Source of the DNA: Oscillospiraceae bacterium
Lineage (GTDB): Bacteria; Bacillota; Clostridia; Oscillospirales; Oscillospiraceae
Assembly (NCBI GenBank): GCA_902790375.1
Contig: CADARY010000031.1
Location: 1 to 36,131, forward strand
Direction of reading: 5' to 3'
DNA length: 36,131 nucleotides
The translations under genes and the position numbers were made by a program. The notes under the pieces are model-generated. The model saw only the letters and a program-made list of their open reading frames with translations, ran no database searches and was not told the origin of the DNA. Positions 5,836 to 32,479 of this stretch are shown in pieces. Position 1 is the stretch's first letter. Each line of letters begins with the position of its first letter.

Positions 5836-6010
5836 AGAAAAGTTCTGAAATCGAAAGGTTTTGGGATGGTCTCAAATGTGATACTATTACTGTTGAAGAG
5901 CATGGCTTCTTGTCCTTTCAGTTTTGTATAGGCAACTTAACTTTAGGACTGCCATGCTCTTCTTTCAATAGCTTATTCTCTTTTACTCATTAAAGTTTCG
6001 TGATGATCCC
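5836..6010. other. Gene-free spacer with an inverted repeat
   Basis: No gene is supportable. A perfect 12-bp inverted repeat (GAAGAGCATGGC at 5895-5906, pairing with 5951-5962) encloses 44 nt; it is followed by a T-rich stretch. It could be a terminator of an unseen transcript, a small structured RNA or a mini-element footprint. Confidence 0.35.
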
Positions 6011-6013
6011 AAA

Positions 6014-6046
6014 AACAGGCAGTGATCGGTTTGATCACTGCCTGTT
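6014..6046 (-). terminator. Terminator of the HD-GYP sensor gene
   Basis: A perfect 14-bp stem (AACAGGCAGTGATC with 6033-6046) with a 5-nt loop. Read on the minus strand it is followed by TTTTT, and it lies just past the stop of the long sensor gene. Confidence 0.85.
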
Positions 6047-6059
6047 TCGAAGCGCGTTC

Positions 6060-9000
6060 TCAGGGAGCTTTCGGGGGCGCTTCCTGCTTGCGGATGTTGT
6101 CGATGGCTTCCATGCTGCCGCCGCCGTGGTCGTCGGGCGCGCGGAACTCACCCTTGTCCACAAGGCGCAGGAAGGCGTCGACCACGTCTGTGGTGAGCTG
6201 GGTGCCGGAGACCTCCTTGATGATGGAGACCACCTTCTCAAAGTTCATCCGGTTGCGGTAGGGACGATTGGAATACATGGCGTCGAAGCAGTCGGCCACC
6301 GCGATGATCTGGGCCACCCGGGGGATCTCCTCACCCTTCAGATGGCCGGGATAGCCCTTGCCGTCAGGCCGCTCATGATGAGCCTGGGCGCCGACGGCCA
6401 GCTCCGGCATGATGGTGATTTCCTTGAGCGCTTCATAGCCCTTCGTGGTGTGGGACTTGATGATCTCAAACTCCTCGTCCGTGAGCTTGCCGGGCTTGTT
6501 GAGCACCTCCTGCGGCACGCCGACCTTGCCGATATCGTGCAGCAGAGCGATGCGATAATACTTCTCCACCGTCTCCTGATCATACCCCAACTCTCTGGCG
6601 AGCATGGCGGTGTACTTTGCCACACGGGAGGAGTGGCCGTTGGTGTAACGGTCCTTCATATCAATGATTTTTGCAAAGGCCTCCGTAATGCCGCCGACAA
6701 GGGCCATGGTCTCCTGCTGCTTCTTCTCAAGGGCGCGGGTTTTTCTGCGGATGTAATACCGCACGGCCGCCGCCAGAATCAACAGTACCGCAAGTCCTAC
6801 CAGCACATAGAACCACACCTGCTCGTAGAAGGCCTTCTCCTTCACGATCGTGACGCTGACAACCTTGTTGCCGCGCCCCATGCTGTCCTTGAGCTGCATC
6901 ACATAATGATAGGTGCCGCCGCGCAGGTTCGTATAGTCCACGGGCACCATCTCGCTGCGGCTGACCGTGGTGCTCTGCCGGTCAAAGCCCTCCAGCTTGT
7001 AGCTCACCTTGGGGTTGCTGAGCGAATAGTTGAATACAAAGCTCGGCACGGTCAGCTTTTGCGTGCCGGACGGGATGGTGAATGCGCCGGTCTCATCCGG
7101 ATAAAGGACCACGCCGTCTGCCTCCACAAAGGGAACGGAGGCAATCAGATCATTGACGTCCTCAAAGGGCTTTTCAATGTTGACCTTGCAAAGGCCTGTG
7201 CTCCCGGCGATGTACAGGTCGCCTTCACTCGTCAGATTGCTGTAGGAATTGGCTGTGGCGATGCAGGGCAGGCCGTTGGCCAGGCTGTAGTATATGGGGT
7301 TGATGTCACCGTTGGCAAGCAGCTCCTCCGCGGGCGTCACATAGATGCCGTTGCTGCTGAGCACCCACATATCCCCCTTGCTGTTCCAGTAGAGGTCAAA
7401 GTTGTTGGCGTAGGGGAATATCTTTACCGTTGTCACCTGACCGTCCGGACGCATAAAGGCGATGGCGCTGCTGGTGACGATCCAGACCACGTCGCGCTCT
7501 GCGTCCCGCTTGAGGCGCATCACGATATCAGAGGGAAGCCCCTCCTCCACGTTGATATTCTCAATGCCGGAGTCCCGGATGATGTAAAGGCCGCCGCCGT
7601 TGCTGCCGAGGAGGATCTCGCCGTTTGCCCCCTCCTCCACGGTGAGGCTTTCAATGTTGACGATCCCGTCTTCCCTGCCGTAGGAGGCGACCACACGCTT
7701 CCCATCAATGACGTTCATGCCGCCGGTAAGGGCGACAAGGATCCTGCCGTCCTTTGCTTCGGTAACCGTGCGCAGGCTGCTGGACAGGAGTCCCTCCGCC
7801 TCGGTAAAGGCGGTCAGTTCACCGTGGTCATAGCACAGAAGCCCGTGGGCGCGCCAGGTGGAGATCCACAGACGCTCCCGGCTGTCACGGATGATGGAGC
7901 GGATGCGGCATCCATCGAGCAGCGCGATCAGATCGTCCGCCTCCAGCGCCTCGCCGGAGGCAGTTTCTGCCCGGGTCAGCGGGAGAGCGCTGAGCGGGCC
8001 GTTCTCATCGAGCACAAGCAGACCCGTGTCGGAGGCGACAAAGAGCTTTCCGTCGCACATACAGGTGGAATTGACAACCATCTCCGGCAGATCATAGCGC
8101 TCAAAGAGGTCGGAGAACTGGTTCGGTACCACCTTCATCACGCCCTGGCGTGTGGAGGTAAACCAGAGATTGCCCAGATAGTCTGTCGTCACGTGGCCGA
8201 CATTGTTGTTCATAGGCAGGTTTTCCAGCAGATGGAAGTGCCCGTTATCCAGCACGCCGATGCCGTTGCCCGCGCAGATCCAGATTTTGCCGTCGATATA
8301 CTCCATGGCCATCAGGTACTTCAGCGGCGAAATGTCGATCTTCTCAAGAACAGTAAACTCCTCACCGGGGTCGACAAGATAAAGGCCGAAGTCCGATGCC
8401 TCATGATAGAGCAGACCCGGATGCTCCGGATCGGGGAGGATGGTGCCGGTCGCCTTGAGGGGATTGTCGCTGGTACCGATATAGCGGAGCAGCTTGCCGT
8501 CCCGGATCAGCATCAGGTCGCCGAGGTCGGTGGTGCCATAGAGGATGCCGTCGCTGCCGAGGCGGAGACTGCGCATGTTCGCGTCGCTGATGTACTCCCC
8601 CTCAATGGAGCTCAGTTGATAATCGGCGTCGATCATCATGATGCCGCCGGTAGTCGCAATATAGATCGTCCCGTCGGGACCCTCGACGATGGCGCGGGTA
8701 TGGGCGGACTTCATCCCGTCCAGCTTCCCCCAGGTTTTGAGGGTACCGCGCTCCATGACCGCGACACCGTTGTCATTTGTCCCGATCCACAGGCGATCCC
8801 GGCTGTCCACGAACAGGCACTTGATGCTGGTGAGGCCGCTGGTGGAATCCATGCGCTCAAAGGTGTTGCCATCGTAGCGGATAAGGCCGGCATAGCTGCC
8901 GATCCAGATAAAGCCGTCGCGCGTTTGGACGATAGCGTTGGCCTCCGAGGTGGGCAGGCCGTTGAGCCCGTCATACAGTACTGCGGAATAACCCTCGGTA

Positions 9001-9134
9001 TAGCCCAGCAGATCGACAGAAACCCTTGCATTGTCAGCCGCAGCGGCATATACGGGCTGCGCCAGCAGCACAAGGAGCAGCAGGCTAATGCCCAATCGAA
9101 AGCCCAGCCTGCCGGTACCGGTATATTTATACAT
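6060..9134 (-). CDS. Membrane sensor: beta-propeller, Y_Y_Y domain, HD-GYP phosphodiesterase
   Basis: A 1024-residue protein. Residues 1-30 form a signal peptide or anchor (hydrophobic LGISLLLLVLLAQPVYA). Residues about 45-670 hold repeated propeller blades with IWIGS, LWIGTNDNG and LWFTSTRQG signatures of the two-component-regulator propeller family. A Y_Y_Y-type domain follows (about 680-775; YKLEGFD, LRGGTYHY), then one membrane helix (about 785-805) and a cytoplasmic HD-GYP domain with LLHDIGKVG and HHERPDGKGYP. HD-GYP domains hydrolyse cyclic di-GMP; the extracellular propeller probably senses a polysaccharide or other surface cue. The start at 9134 has GAGGAG 8 nt upstream and a strong promoter. 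No GGDEF cyclase is nearby, so its opponent must lie elsewhere. Confidence 0.9.
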   Translation of the reverse strand: MYKYTGTGRLGFRLGISLLLLVLLAQPVYAAAADNARVSVDLLGYTEGYSAVLYDGLNGLPTSEANAIVQTRDGFIWIGSYAGLIRYDGNTFERMDSTSGLTSIKCLFVDSRDRLWIGTNDNGVAVMERGTLKTWGKLDGMKSAHTRAIVEGPDGTIYIATTGGIMMIDADYQLSSIEGEYISDANMRSLRLGSDGILYGTTDLGDLMLIRDGKLLRYIGTSDNPLKATGTILPDPEHPGLLYHEASDFGLYLVDPGEEFTVLEKIDISPLKYLMAMEYIDGKIWICAGNGIGVLDNGHFHLLENLPMNNNVGHVTTDYLGNLWFTSTRQGVMKVVPNQFSDLFERYDLPEMVVNSTCMCDGKLFVASDTGLLVLDENGPLSALPLTRAETASGEALEADDLIALLDGCRIRSIIRDSRERLWISTWRAHGLLCYDHGELTAFTEAEGLLSSSLRTVTEAKDGRILVALTGGMNVIDGKRVVASYGREDGIVNIESLTVEEGANGEILLGSNGGGLYIIRDSGIENINVEEGLPSDIVMRLKRDAERDVVWIVTSSAIAFMRPDGQVTTVKIFPYANNFDLYWNSKGDMWVLSSNGIYVTPAEELLANGDINPIYYSLANGLPCIATANSYSNLTSEGDLYIAGSTGLCKVNIEKPFEDVNDLIASVPFVEADGVVLYPDETGAFTIPSGTQKLTVPSFVFNYSLSNPKVSYKLEGFDRQSTTVSRSEMVPVDYTNLRGGTYHYVMQLKDSMGRGNKVVSVTIVKEKAFYEQVWFYVLVGLAVLLILAAAVRYYIRRKTRALEKKQQETMALVGGITEAFAKIIDMKDRYTNGHSSRVAKYTAMLARELGYDQETVEKYYRIALLHDIGKVGVPQEVLNKPGKLTDEEFEIIKSHTTKGYEALKEITIMPELAVGAQAHHERPDGKGYPGHLKGEEIPRVAQIIAVADCFDAMYSNRPYRNRMNFEKVVSIIKEVSGTQLTTDVVDAFLRLVDKGEFRAPDDHGGGSMEAIDNIRKQEAPPKAP

Positions 9135-9171
9135 GTGAAAACTCCTCTATAAATCATTTGGATTATTCGGT

Positions 9172-27777: not shown

Positions 27778-28836
27778 TCATCGACGCTCCGACGCCTGGA
27801 AGGCCTCCGGCGGGAGGCAGGGGGAAAGACCTGTGAGGAGGGTGTCATAGCTCTTTTCGTATTCCGTCTGCGGGGATTTGAGCGGGCTTATGGAGCGGGG
27901 CGCGCGGCTCAGGGATACGCGCACGGCGGTGCCGATGCCCTCACGGCTCTCCAGCAGGAGCGTTCCGCCGTGGGTCCGGGCAATCTCCCGCGCGGCGGTG
28001 AGGCCGAGGCCCGGCCCGTGTCCCGCCTCGCTCAGACCGCAGTCGTAGCGGTAGCGCTCGAGCACGGTGTTGAGTCTCTCGCCCGGAATGCCGCAGCCGT
28101 CGTCGTCCACGGACAGAATCGTCTGCTCGCCCGCGCTGTGCAGCGTGACGCGGATGCGGGTGCAGCCCTCGGCATGCAGCAGACAGTTTGACAGCAGATT
28201 CAGCGCCAACGTCTCCAGCAGGGCGGGGTCGCCCTGGATCGGCAGCGTATCGGGCGCGTTGAAGCAGATCTCCGGCGCGGGCACCAGCAGACGCACCGAT
28301 TCGATCAGATCCCGCAGCAGACGCGCCAGATCGAGCGCCTGGGGCAGAAAAAGAACACTGTTTCGCTCCCCGTCGCGGATGATCGAGAGGTTCTGGAGGG
28401 TCCGATTGAGCCGGTAGAGAGACATGGAAATGCTGCCCAGGGCCGAGGCTGCGCCAGGCTCTGCGGAGCGGAGCTGGTTTTTGAGCATGGAGGCCGCCGC
28501 GCCGAGCTGCATCATCTCGGTCCTGAGCGTAAAGAGAAAGGCGTCGCTGATGAGCTCCTGCACACTCTCGCGCGGGGAGAGGAAAACCACGCGCATCCCC
28601 TCCATCGCCTTGACCCGCAGCAGCATACGCCGGCCCGCGACCTCGGTCTCGGCTACGAAGCCGGGGGCCTGCATGCCCGCGATCTCCTTTCCGAAAAGCT
28701 CCCGAAAGCTTTTGCTGCGGCAGTCCGGCCCCAGCAGGGTGCAGGCGGCCTCGTTGGCAAACAGAATTTTACCGCCCTTGATGAGAAGGGCGGGCTCCCC
28801 GGTGAGTGCAAGAAGCTCGGCGGAAAACGCAATCAT
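27778..28836 (-). CDS. Histidine-kinase-like ATPase lacking the phospho-acceptor His
   Basis: A 352-residue soluble protein. Residues about 5-85 look like a small PAS-type sensor. The dimerisation helix carries FTLRTEM where kinases have HELRTPL, so the usual His is Phe102. The ATPase domain is well kept: N box NLLSNCLLHA, G1 DDDGCGIP and G2 GHGPGLGLTAAREIARTHGG. A proline-rich tail of about 40 residues follows. There is no transmembrane segment and no response regulator next to it. It may bind ATP without autophosphorylating, or act through a partner kinase. The gene stands alone on the minus strand. Confidence 0.8.
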   Translation of the reverse strand: MIAFSAELLALTGEPALLIKGGKILFANEAACTLLGPDCRSKSFRELFGKEIAGMQAPGFVAETEVAGRRMLLRVKAMEGMRVVFLSPRESVQELISDAFLFTLRTEMMQLGAAASMLKNQLRSAEPGAASALGSISMSLYRLNRTLQNLSIIRDGERNSVLFLPQALDLARLLRDLIESVRLLVPAPEICFNAPDTLPIQGDPALLETLALNLLSNCLLHAEGCTRIRVTLHSAGEQTILSVDDDGCGIPGERLNTVLERYRYDCGLSEAGHGPGLGLTAAREIARTHGGTLLLESREGIGTAVRVSLSRAPRSISPLKSPQTEYEKSYDTLLTGLSPCLPPEAFQASERR

Positions 28837-29107: not shown

Positions 29108-30054
<947 letters not shown>

Positions 30055-30227: not shown

Positions 30228-31367
30228 ATGAGAAGAATCCTGCCCCTGCTTCTGGCGCTCCTGCTGGCCGTGTCCCTGTTCATGGCGCTGAACGTCAGCG
30301 CCGCCGCGGCGGAGACGGACGCGCCTGCCGCGCTTGAGATCTACACCATGACGGGCAGCACGGGCACACCCGTACTCGCCAAGGCCTACAGCGCCGCCGC
30401 GCTCGACGCGCTGAAAGAGACAAAAGCCGACGGCTACGCCTACGCCTCGTATAAGGGAGGCGCTGAGACCGCGATCGTTGCCACCGAGTATGTGACGCTT
30501 GACGCGCTGCTGGCCGACGCGGGCGTGAGCTTCACTGCGGGCGACAAGCTGAGCTTTGTCTGCTATGACGGCCCCTATCAGTATGGCGATTTCAGCTATG
30601 AGATCATGTCCCGGCGCGGCATTGATCCCAGCGGCGAACCTGTGCCCACCGCCTTTGCCATCACCTACGCAAAGGGCTCCCTCGCCGAGAGCAGCGTTGC
30701 GGACATTGCAAAGACCGCTGCGAACAGCGGCGCGCTGCGCTTCGTCTCCGGCATGACGATCGAGGAGAGCGAAGAGAAGGCGATTGCAGGCGAACGCATG
30801 CCCTCCGGCGTTATCTCCATGACAGTCGTCAAGGCGCCCGCCGCGCTCGAGGTCTACACCCAGAGCGGCGACGAGGGTACGCCCGTGCTCACCAAAGCCT
30901 ACAGCGCTGCCGCACTTGAGGCGCTGAAAGAGACGAAGACCGACGGCTGTGCGTACATCTTCTATAAGGGAGACGAGAAAAACGCGATCGTCGCGACCGA
31001 GTATGTGACGCTCGACACGCTGCTGGCTGACGCGGGCGTGAGCTTCGCTGAGGGCGACAGGCTGAGCTTCAATTGCTTTGACGGCCTTTATCCGTATGGC
31101 GATTTCCGCTATGAGGCCGTGGCGCAGCGCGGCGTGGATTCCAGCGGCGCGCCCGTCCCCACTGCGTTTGCCGTCACCTACGCGAAGGGCTCCCTCACGG
31201 AGATGAGCATTGCAGATATCGCCAAGGCCGCTGAAAATAACGGTGTGCTGCGCTTCGTCTGCGGCATGACCGCCGAGGAGAAGGACGCGAAAACCGCCTC
31301 GGGTGAGCGGATGCCCTTCGGCGTCGCCTCCGTGACGGTCGTCAGCCCGTCCCCCGATGGGAAGTAA
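30228..31367 (+). CDS. Secreted protein of two tandem copies of one domain
   Basis: A 379-residue protein with a signal peptide (MRRILPLLLALLLAVSLFMA, cleavage near VSAAAAE, no lipobox). Residues about 35-204 and 205-375 are two copies of one domain, aligned from ALEIYTMTGSTGTPVL and ALEVYTQSGDEGTPVL through ATEYVTLDALLADAGVSF, PVPTAFAITYAKGSL and GERMP. The segment TLDALLADAGV...GDKLSFVCYDG faintly recalls the ligand-binding core of oxidoreductase molybdopterin-binding domains, but the active-site Cys and cofactor motifs are not evident, so I do not assign a function. The start follows GGAAAGGAAG. It has its own promoter and terminator. Confidence 0.75.
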   Translation: MRRILPLLLALLLAVSLFMALNVSAAAAETDAPAALEIYTMTGSTGTPVLAKAYSAAALDALKETKADGYAYASYKGGAETAIVATEYVTLDALLADAGVSFTAGDKLSFVCYDGPYQYGDFSYEIMSRRGIDPSGEPVPTAFAITYAKGSLAESSVADIAKTAANSGALRFVSGMTIEESEEKAIAGERMPSGVISMTVVKAPAALEVYTQSGDEGTPVLTKAYSAAALEALKETKTDGCAYIFYKGDEKNAIVATEYVTLDTLLADAGVSFAEGDRLSFNCFDGLYPYGDFRYEAVAQRGVDSSGAPVPTAFAVTYAKGSLTEMSIADIAKAAENNGVLRFVCGMTAEEKDAKTASGERMPFGVASVTVVSPSPDGK

Positions 31368-31425: not shown

Positions 31426-31461
31426 CAATCGCCCCGAAAGGCATGCCTTTCGGGGCGATTG
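31426..31461. terminator. 36-nt perfect palindrome, probable terminator
   Basis: CAATCGCCCCGAAAGGCA and its exact complement (31444-31461) form an uninterrupted 36-nt palindrome. It shares the core CCCGAAAGG/CCTTTCGGG with the gap terminator at 30074-30109. There is no T-tract, but its position past a stop codon fits a terminator. Confidence 0.65.
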
Positions 31462-31508
31462 ATGTACAGATAACCGGAAAACAAATCCCGCAGCGATTTC
31501 CGGTATTA

Positions 31509-31706
31509 TTATTTGGATCGGGCAGCCTTGCCGGTCTCCCTGATACTGTCGGAGAGGACGCTGCCTGTGTGCTCGGCCTTACTCATGCTGAAGAGCATGC
31601 TGACCACATTGCTGGCTGTGCGACAGATCAGCTCTCCCGGGACTCCGCCCGAGACATTGGCAAGCTCGCCGTTCTCGATGCTCCTTTTTTTCGTTTCGTT
31701 CTCCAT
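31509..31706 (-). CDS. Double-glycine-leader peptide, putative bacteriocin or signal precursor
   Basis: A 65-residue peptide. The first 21 residues end in IENGELANVSGG and match the double-glycine leader used by C39-peptidase ABC exporters: hydrophobic at -12, Glu at -8, Leu at -7, Val at -4, Gly-Gly at -2/-1. The core (VPGELICRTASNVV... to GKAARSK) is 44 residues with one Cys, a small hydrophobic middle and a basic end. There is a ribosome binding site (AGAGGTG) and its own TATAAT promoter. No transporter, immunity or modification gene is nearby, so the export partner must be elsewhere. It may be a class II bacteriocin-like or signalling peptide. Family assignment rests on the leader alone. 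Confidence 0.65.
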   Translation of the reverse strand: MENETKKRSIENGELANVSGGVPGELICRTASNVVSMLFSMSKAEHTGSVLSDSIRETGKAARSK

Positions 31707-31742
31707 AATCGTACACCTCTGATCTTTCGGTTTCCTCTCGCT

Positions 31743-31771
31743 ATTATATTACAAAACGCCGGAAAAAGCAA
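31743..31771 (-). promoter_or_regulatory. Promoter of the double-glycine peptide gene
   Basis: On the minus strand TTGCTT (31766-31771), 17-nt spacer, perfect TATAAT (31743-31748), about 40 nt before the start codon. Confidence 0.65.
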
Positions 31772-31802
31772 TGCACAAGGCGCTGAAAGAATCTTAATAA
31801 AT

Positions 31803-31846
31803 AAAAAAGCACAGGCCCCGTCCTTCCTGACAGAGCCTGTGCTTTT
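31803..31846 (-). terminator. Terminator of upp
   Basis: The stem GCACAGGC (31809-31816) pairs with GCCTGTGC (31835-31842), flanked by A6 and T4. On the minus strand it ends in TTTTTT, just past the upp stop. Confidence 0.85.
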
Positions 31847-31849
31847 CGA

Positions 31850-32479
31850 TTACTTGGTGCCGAAGATACGGTCGCCGGCGTCGCCCAGACCGGGGACGAT
31901 GTAGCCGTGCTCGTTCAGGTGATCGTCCAGCGCGGCGACATAAATGTCCACATCGGGGTGATCCTCCTGCATGCGCTTGACACCCTCGGGAGCGCCGATG
32001 ATGCTCATGAGCTTGATATGCTTGACGCCGGCTTCCTTGAGGAAGGCGACGGCCGCGGAGGCGGAGCCGCCGGTGGCGAGCATGGGATCAACAATGATAG
32101 CGTCACGCTCTTCGATATCGGGGGGCATCTTGAAGTAGTACTTGACCGGCTCAAGCGTTGCGGGGTCGCGGAAGAGACCCACATGGCCGACCTTGACGTT
32201 GGGCATCATGCTCACGATACCGTCAACCATGCCGAGACCGGCGCGGAGAATGGGGACGACAGCCAGCTTCTTGCCGGAAATACGTCTGCACTTGGCAGGA
32301 GCAACGGGGGTTTCGACCGTGATCTCCTCCAGCGGCAGATCGCGGGTAGCCTCATAGCACATCAGCATGGCGATCTCGGAAACGAGCTCGCGAAATTCCT
32401 TGACGCTGGTGCTCTTGTCGCGGAGAATGGAAAGCTTGTGCTGAATCAGCGGATGGTCGAAAACGCATACTTTGCTCAT
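31850..32479 (-). CDS. upp: Uracil phosphoribosyltransferase
   Basis: Salvages uracil to UMP using PRPP. The 209-residue protein has the full set of motifs: [26 protein letters not shown], the PRPP loop [14 protein letters not shown] and the uracil-binding C-terminus [17 protein letters not shown]. The start follows AAGGAGAAG. It has its own strong promoter, placed between the end of tsaB and upp, so it is a separate unit. Confidence 0.97.

Follow-up and report, generated by a model that had tools for sequence, protein, structure and literature searches.

A short minus-strand gene in the window, by which we mean the whole 36,131-nucleotide stretch analysed, encodes a 65-residue precursor with a double-glycine leader, and we consider its 44-residue core to be probably a small secreted protein, exported in trans by a C39 transporter of the NHLM type, that belongs to a dispersed, leader-coded set and probably acts at the envelope. 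By computation we find a conserved open reading frame and leader, two exporters in the same genome, a set of small proteins behind the same kind of leader, a genus-wide association of such leaders with exporters and a physical linkage between the two; for the peptide itself, we infer export, cleavage and envelope action. The precursor's leader would be bound by the C39 peptidase domain of an exporter of NHLM type, either that of contig C8 or its relative on C20, and would be cut off after its Gly-Gly, releasing the 44-residue core outside. The same leader label would serve some 20 small proteins encoded at scattered places, and this set would act at the cell envelope or extracellular matrix, the cell's own or its neighbours', not as a classical self-contained bacteriocin. 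In this genome the leader may label proteins for export in general and not mark one antibiotic peptide. We regard the peptide as a new member of the set, and the set itself, dispersed, linked to NHLM exporters and including wall-binding cores, as a new form of a known export type.

The precursor and its relatives

The gene (31509..31706, minus strand) runs from an ATG at 31706 to a stop at 31509, as given by the open reading frame list and by its relatives. Its 21-residue leader (31644..31706, minus strand), MENETKKRSIENGELANVSGG, ends in ELANVSGG, with C39 cleavage predicted after Gly21 from the alignment and a leader profile; the core (31512..31643, minus strand) starts VPGELIC and, as read from the translation, has 44 residues with one Cys and a net charge of +2 (K+R minus D+E). 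Gly stands at -1 and -2, Val at -4, Leu at -7, Ile at -12 and Lys at -15. Among the aligned sequences, the Gly-Gly of a PCAT substrate is present at -2/-1 in 6/6, V/L/I at -4/-7/-12 in 6/6 and the Lys at -15, in place of a hydrophobic residue, likewise in 6/6. The sequence-only reading had described just such a 65-residue precursor, with a one-Cys core beginning Val-Pro, and conservation of leader and core in four independent relatives bears this out; its further statement that the leader fits at every diagnostic position holds for -1/-2, -4, -7 and -12 but is slightly overstated at -15. Since double-glycine leaders have three or four conserved hydrophobic positions, the fourth being -15, according to the available part of PMC7018657, we have not treated the Lys as excluding. 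The peptide's leader scores E 7.4e-6 with the leader profile, of which it is itself 1 of 12 seeds. Neither Pfam nor NCBIfam has a family, class II ones included, that the whole protein matches at E<=10, and its leader, at 21 residues and with no Pfam or NCBIfam match, is not of the long NHLP or Nif11 type.

A database search returned four clusters with 75-98% identity to the precursor over its whole length, to which a profile search added one more, at 65%. The cluster at 98%, P0003, is listed with no source, as are proteins that the window itself encodes; it may be the window's own protein, and we count four independent relatives (65-80%). All four keep both the leader and the 44-residue core in an end-to-end alignment, and GGVPGELIC, including the single Cys, is invariant in the six-row alignment. 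Between P0002 and P0006 there are 1/21 leader and 15/44 core differences, and between P0006 and P0058 there are 8/21 and 1/44, a pattern suggestive of leader-core exchange within the family, in pairs picked after looking among six sequences only. Two antisense reading frames overlap the gene (31443-31904 and 31513-31722), which, together with the family's absence from 101 other genomes of the genus, might point to a spurious frame whose leader resemblance arose by chance; four independent relatives that align end to end across an invariant leader-core junction make this scarcely credible.

The family is rare. Homologues with the same leader, which the sequence-only reading had proposed to look for in related genomes, number four in the databases, but no family member was confirmed in the 101 other genus genomes searched, many of them incomplete. 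That search gave 8 matches outside the peptide's own genome, at E 0.009-0.09, none belonging to the family. Considered as distant relatives and rejected were L011, L014, L016, L017 and L018, with L004 from the order search, which are not double-glycine-leader peptides of the family, and, as distant core relatives, L015, L019 and L020, which carry double-glycine leaders on different cores and were used as profile seeds. The best match to the core among 23 genomes from the order's other families had an E of 0.12; the genome_contigs collection, scanned by pattern, gave no confirmed match to the family, and phages and viral contigs gave none to the protein. A phage, plasmid or viral origin was rejected, as no phage or viral protein matched and plasmid DNA matches, among the 20 of 27 records listed, cover the upp end only.

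C39 exporters and a scattered leader-bearing set

The peptide's genome (3.1 Mb, 95 contigs, 88.6% complete) contains two C39 exporter loci, on contigs C8 and C20, in keeping with the remote C39 exporter suggested by the sequence-only reading. Because both lie on contigs other than the peptide's, we infer the pairing of peptide and exporter. The two loci have the same layout of a short membrane protein, a C39-ABC protein and a second ABC protein, and a double-glycine-leader reading frame follows each operon. The C8 exporter passes the cut-offs of both NHLM families, reaching 931.2 bits against TIGR03796 (853.3 needed) and 741.1 against TIGR03797 (709.4 needed), while that of C20 scores 826.5 and 617.1 bits, under both. 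The short membrane proteins of the two loci align to the first part of TIGR03794, far under its cut-off; the HlyD-like partner at C8 reaches 31.5 of the 156.2 bits needed, over the first 51/421 positions only, and does not qualify as a member of that family.

A pattern scan for double-glycine leaders also picked up numerous false sites within upp and elsewhere in coding sequence, and we therefore adopted a profile (A2) of 12 leader seeds, chosen by pattern and by eye from loci of six genomes, three of them from the peptide's own genome and two picked because they lie beside its C39 operons. In that genome the profile has 20 matches at E<=10, 14 of them at E<0.1, spread over 15 contigs in open frames of 61-167 residues; 17/20 are non-seeds, and a Shine-Dalgarno-like site precedes the candidate start in 19/20 (all but L057). 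Positions -4, -7 and -12 are always hydrophobic in these 20 leaders, a property for which the profile selected.

Scanned with Pfam, 8 of the 20 set proteins have recognised cores: LysM in L056, L062, L065, L067 and L070, CW_7 in L063 and L068, and PepSY in L051. The leaders of L051, L056, L062 and L063 score E<0.1, those of L065, L067, L068 and L070 only 0.27-1.7. Under the Pfam cut-off are SH3_3 (L060, L061), GW (L058), a Nif11-like protein (L069, 23.5 versus 23.8 bits) and the weakly NHLP-like L066 (PF02979, nitrile hydratase alpha, E 0.017); six remaining set proteins have nothing over the cut-off. Among 51 database relatives of L062, a LysM protein, the leader's Gly-Gly is present in 50, recognised by pattern in 43 and by inspection in 7; P0057, counted among the 50, is a fragment without an annotated LysM, and one relative is recorded under an Oscillospiraceae bacterium. 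In the eight proteins with recognised cores, double-glycine leaders directly precede single LysM, CW_7 or PepSY domains, and the eye finds no Sec signal.

As the recognisable cores are single LysM, CW_7 or PepSY domains, the set, and probably the peptide with it, would act at the envelope; the peptide's own core has no recognisable domain, so that such an action would be ascribed to it by association with the set. The orphan bacteriocin or signal of the sequence-only reading is an orphan in its local setting but too narrow a description of one of about 20 leader-bearing reading frames, the recognised cores of which are LysM, CW_7 or PepSY.

The main rival is a bacteriocin of class II type, whose core would kill relatives after NHLM export in trans and whose immunity gene would lie elsewhere or be absent. 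Such a function would suit the peptide's length, leader type and net charge of +2, its amphipathic stretches (moment 0.44-0.48 in the 18-residue windows that begin at residues 23-27, the tail reaching 0.53) and its single Cys, invariant in six sequences and possibly forming a disulfide dimer; leaders of two other set members also show weak, sub-cut-off matches to Bacteriocin_IIc (PF10439; L025 at E 0.0033, L058 at E 0.018). Yet the gene is solitary, the protein lacks any Pfam or NCBIfam match at E<=10, no nearby immunity gene is recognised, and where cores of the set can be assigned, in eight proteins, they are wall-binding or PepSY. An immunity protein may escape recognition from sequence, and we regard the bacteriocin as an unlikely but serious alternative.

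At 44 residues the core is long for a pheromone, and we find it distinctly unlikely that it is secreted as a signal between cells that a two-component system would sense. The invariant start of the core, VPGELIC, in six sequences would fit a signal, and the window does encode an HATPase_c protein, but this kinase (27778-28836) lies 2.7 kb from the peptide gene, separated from it by further genes, and few members of the genus would have the peptide at all. Streptococcal double-glycine peptides do include pheromones (PMC7018657; see also PMC7595303). A RiPP precursor, with Cys, Ser or Thr enzymatically modified before export, appears very unlikely for a peptide that has neither an NHLP nor a Nif11 leader and only one Cys, and in whose window no modification enzyme is found among the 20 reading frames scanned; what speaks for it is that the original description of NHLM exporters links them to precursors of the NHLP and Nif11 types (available part of PMC2887384) and that the same genome has the weakly NHLP-like L066 and the Nif11-like L069, both under cut-off.

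Leaders and exporters across the genus, and known systems

Our preferred reading, of a leader-coded set served by an NHLM exporter in trans, gains a wider setting from the genus. An exporter over the TIGR03796 cut-off occurs in 63/102 of its genomes, and at least one leader match at E<=0.02 in 61/102, with 249 matches in total. Leader matches are found in 56/63 exporter-positive against 5/39 other genomes, a difference whose Fisher value (p 6e-15) is overstated because related genomes of one genus are not independent; by subtraction, the counts without the six seed genomes are 50/57 against 5/39. Among the five leader-positive genomes without an exporter over the cut-off, G086 has its exporter in two pieces and G009 and G028 are 65% and 57% complete, while G077 and G082 are unexplained. 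Seven exporter-positive genomes of the genus have no leader match.

Leaders and exporters are also physically linked: 37/150 listed matches are no more than 10 kb from a listed exporter (at least 640 bits), where 2.1 would be expected for 2.5 Mb genomes. The 37 include five seeds, two of which were picked because they adjoin the own C39 operons, leaving 32/138 listed non-seed matches. All but two of the 150 listed matches fall in open frames of 200 residues or fewer. In leader-rich genomes the listed matches are mostly far from the exporter, with 0/16 near it in G015 and 2/10 in G000; leader genes are clustered beside the exporter in some species and scattered in others. G015 has 22 leader matches at E<=0.02, including two adjoining Cys-rich reading frames with double-glycine leaders.

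Outside the genus the leader is uncommon: at E<=0.01 the profile matches 4/146 other genomes in the order sample, the same genus being absent among the rows listed. TIGR03796 is found at E<=1e-150 in 12/146 order genomes, including 3 of the 4 leader-positive ones, and in these three the leader matches share a contig with the exporter, at a distance of 0.5-9 kb; the exporter of G041 is under the cut-off, and those of G195 and G237 have an internal stop.

We extend these observations, tentatively and at somewhat short of even odds, to the proposal that the C39 exporter of NHLM type in this genus provides a general, Sec-independent, leader-coded route for small folded proteins with single LysM, CW_7, SH3-like, PepSY or unrecognised cores, its substrates forming a dispersed, fast-changing and partly co-regulated secretome of the envelope or matrix. 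A double-glycine leader is commonly taken to indicate a bacteriocin or a pheromone, and an NHLM exporter to transport modified peptides. Should an NHLM exporter also transport wall-binding domains, some of what is predicted as 'bacteriocin' repertoire has been misread, and a non-Sec route for small envelope proteins has been overlooked; the leader profile offers a simple rule for listing substrates encoded away from their exporter.

Precedents for the separate steps come from better-known systems, each as given in the available part of its source. The C39 domain recognises the leader and cleaves after the Gly-Gly (PMC7018657), a transporter of this kind in Gram-negative bacteria exports small proteins that vary in sequence and carry a leader of double-glycine type (PMC10231218), and small proteins with such leaders can serve biofilms (PMC4997328); it is on these three that we base export in trans and an action at the envelope or outside as probable for the peptide. 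Closest to the set are EbfG1-4 and the transporter PteB of Synechococcus elongatus (as far as described in PMC4997328), which are likewise small proteins with a double-glycine motif, whose efficient secretion needs a transporter with a C39 peptidase. They serve biofilm development, not killing; the four cyanobacterial genes are transcribed together, whereas the set here is dispersed, its putative exporter is a pair of NHLM type and several of its cores are known wall-binding domains.

With the NHLM/NHLP system (TIGR03794, TIGR03796 and TIGR03797; PMC2887384 in its available part) the own genome shares the C8 pair, which passes TIGR03796 and TIGR03797, and sub-cut-off NHLP- and Nif11-like reading frames; it differs in the short HlyD-like partner, far under TIGR03794, and in that most putative substrates have short leaders of class II type. 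The peptide resembles class II bacteriocins (PF10439; the accessible text of the IIBacFinder commentary, PMC12648078) in its short leader, hydrophobic -4/-7/-12 and Gly-Gly, but has no family match and neither a recognised immunity gene nor an exporter as neighbour. For the double-glycine peptides of pneumococcal ComAB, BlpAB and RtgAB, the available part of PMC7018657 describes transporters that are shared and not necessarily encoded alongside, the leader directing export, as we propose here; those peptides are streptococcal pheromones and bacteriocins with a hydrophobic -15, where the present peptide has Lys. In the open-access literature, most subscription papers lying outside this scope, we found no description of a dispersed NHLM-linked double-glycine-leader set with wall-binding cores.

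The locus around upp

Immediately upstream of the peptide gene, and on the same strand, lies upp, assigned by Pfam to uracil phosphoribosyltransferase (31850..32479, minus strand), which ends in a terminator-like hairpin found by hairpin scan (31804..31847, minus strand), so that a promoter of the peptide gene's own would fit. The sequence-only reading had given it a TATAAT promoter and a ribosome binding site, and both motifs are there to be read on the minus strand: a -10 box TATAAT (31743..31748) and a Shine-Dalgarno-like AGAGG (31716..31720), 9 nt 5' of the ATG. The -35, TTGCTT (31766..31771, minus strand; spacer 17 nt), is weak and under the promoter-scan threshold, at which no sigma-70 site is listed for the gene. 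Downstream of the reading frame, a terminator scan places a hairpin terminator (31426..31461, minus strand) that may perhaps be shared with the convergent gene at 30228-31367.

A candidate regulator repeat, TTAAG-N5-TTCAG (31783..31797, minus strand), resembles repeats 5' of some other double-glycine-leader genes, but the pattern is post hoc and suggestive only: the TTAAG-N5-TTAAG-like repeat was defined after viewing sequences that included the peptide gene's, with mononucleotide shuffles as control. Its P is 0.01 for the peptide gene and ranges from 0.0 to 1.0 across 20 upstream regions (16 from the own genome, 4 from relatives), and we take it as a suggestive lead, no further, to shared regulation. 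A second motif, TGTGAC, is present in 8/16 own-genome upstream regions of leader genes (shuffle mean 0.86) and is a possible shared promoter or regulator site of such genes; none was seen in the 110 bases 5' of the peptide gene.

That no exporter, immunity or modification gene is nearby, as the sequence-only reading had it, agrees with the Pfam scan of 20 window reading frames, among which no such family was recognised; a pattern scan of the whole window gave no second double-glycine-leader frame. The gene's neighbours are upp, with TsaD- and TsaE-family genes beyond it, and a 379-residue protein.

In three genomes of sister species, G094, G095 and G106, a different double-glycine-leader gene lies just 3' of upp on the same strand, and we read its core as SH3-like, although the Pfam matches for G094 and G095 are under cut-off. 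Among 30 upp loci with flanks, some of them cut by contig ends, 3, the own locus included, have a double-glycine-leader gene 3' of upp, G106 standing outside the 30. We rejected a single gene by descent at this place, since G094 and G095 carry other cores and no DNA similarity of the peptide gene to either locus was found; for the same reasons we call it a reused site. In L023, L024 and L120 (G109, G027), the place 3' of upp that double-glycine-leader genes have in other species is taken by a small protein whose N-terminus includes a hydrophobic segment and which looks PepSY-like by eye.

Elsewhere in the window, the 379-residue protein at 30228-31367 (plus strand), convergent with the peptide gene, shows long similar DNA repeats by eye and has no Pfam match over cut-off. 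A GAPDH-type reading frame at 29108-29851 (plus strand) has a C-terminal domain that matches only the first half of its profile, and the gene may be interrupted. At 6000-9152, two long reading frames of 1050 and 1024 residues overlap on opposite strands, the minus-strand one having Reg_prop and HD domains.
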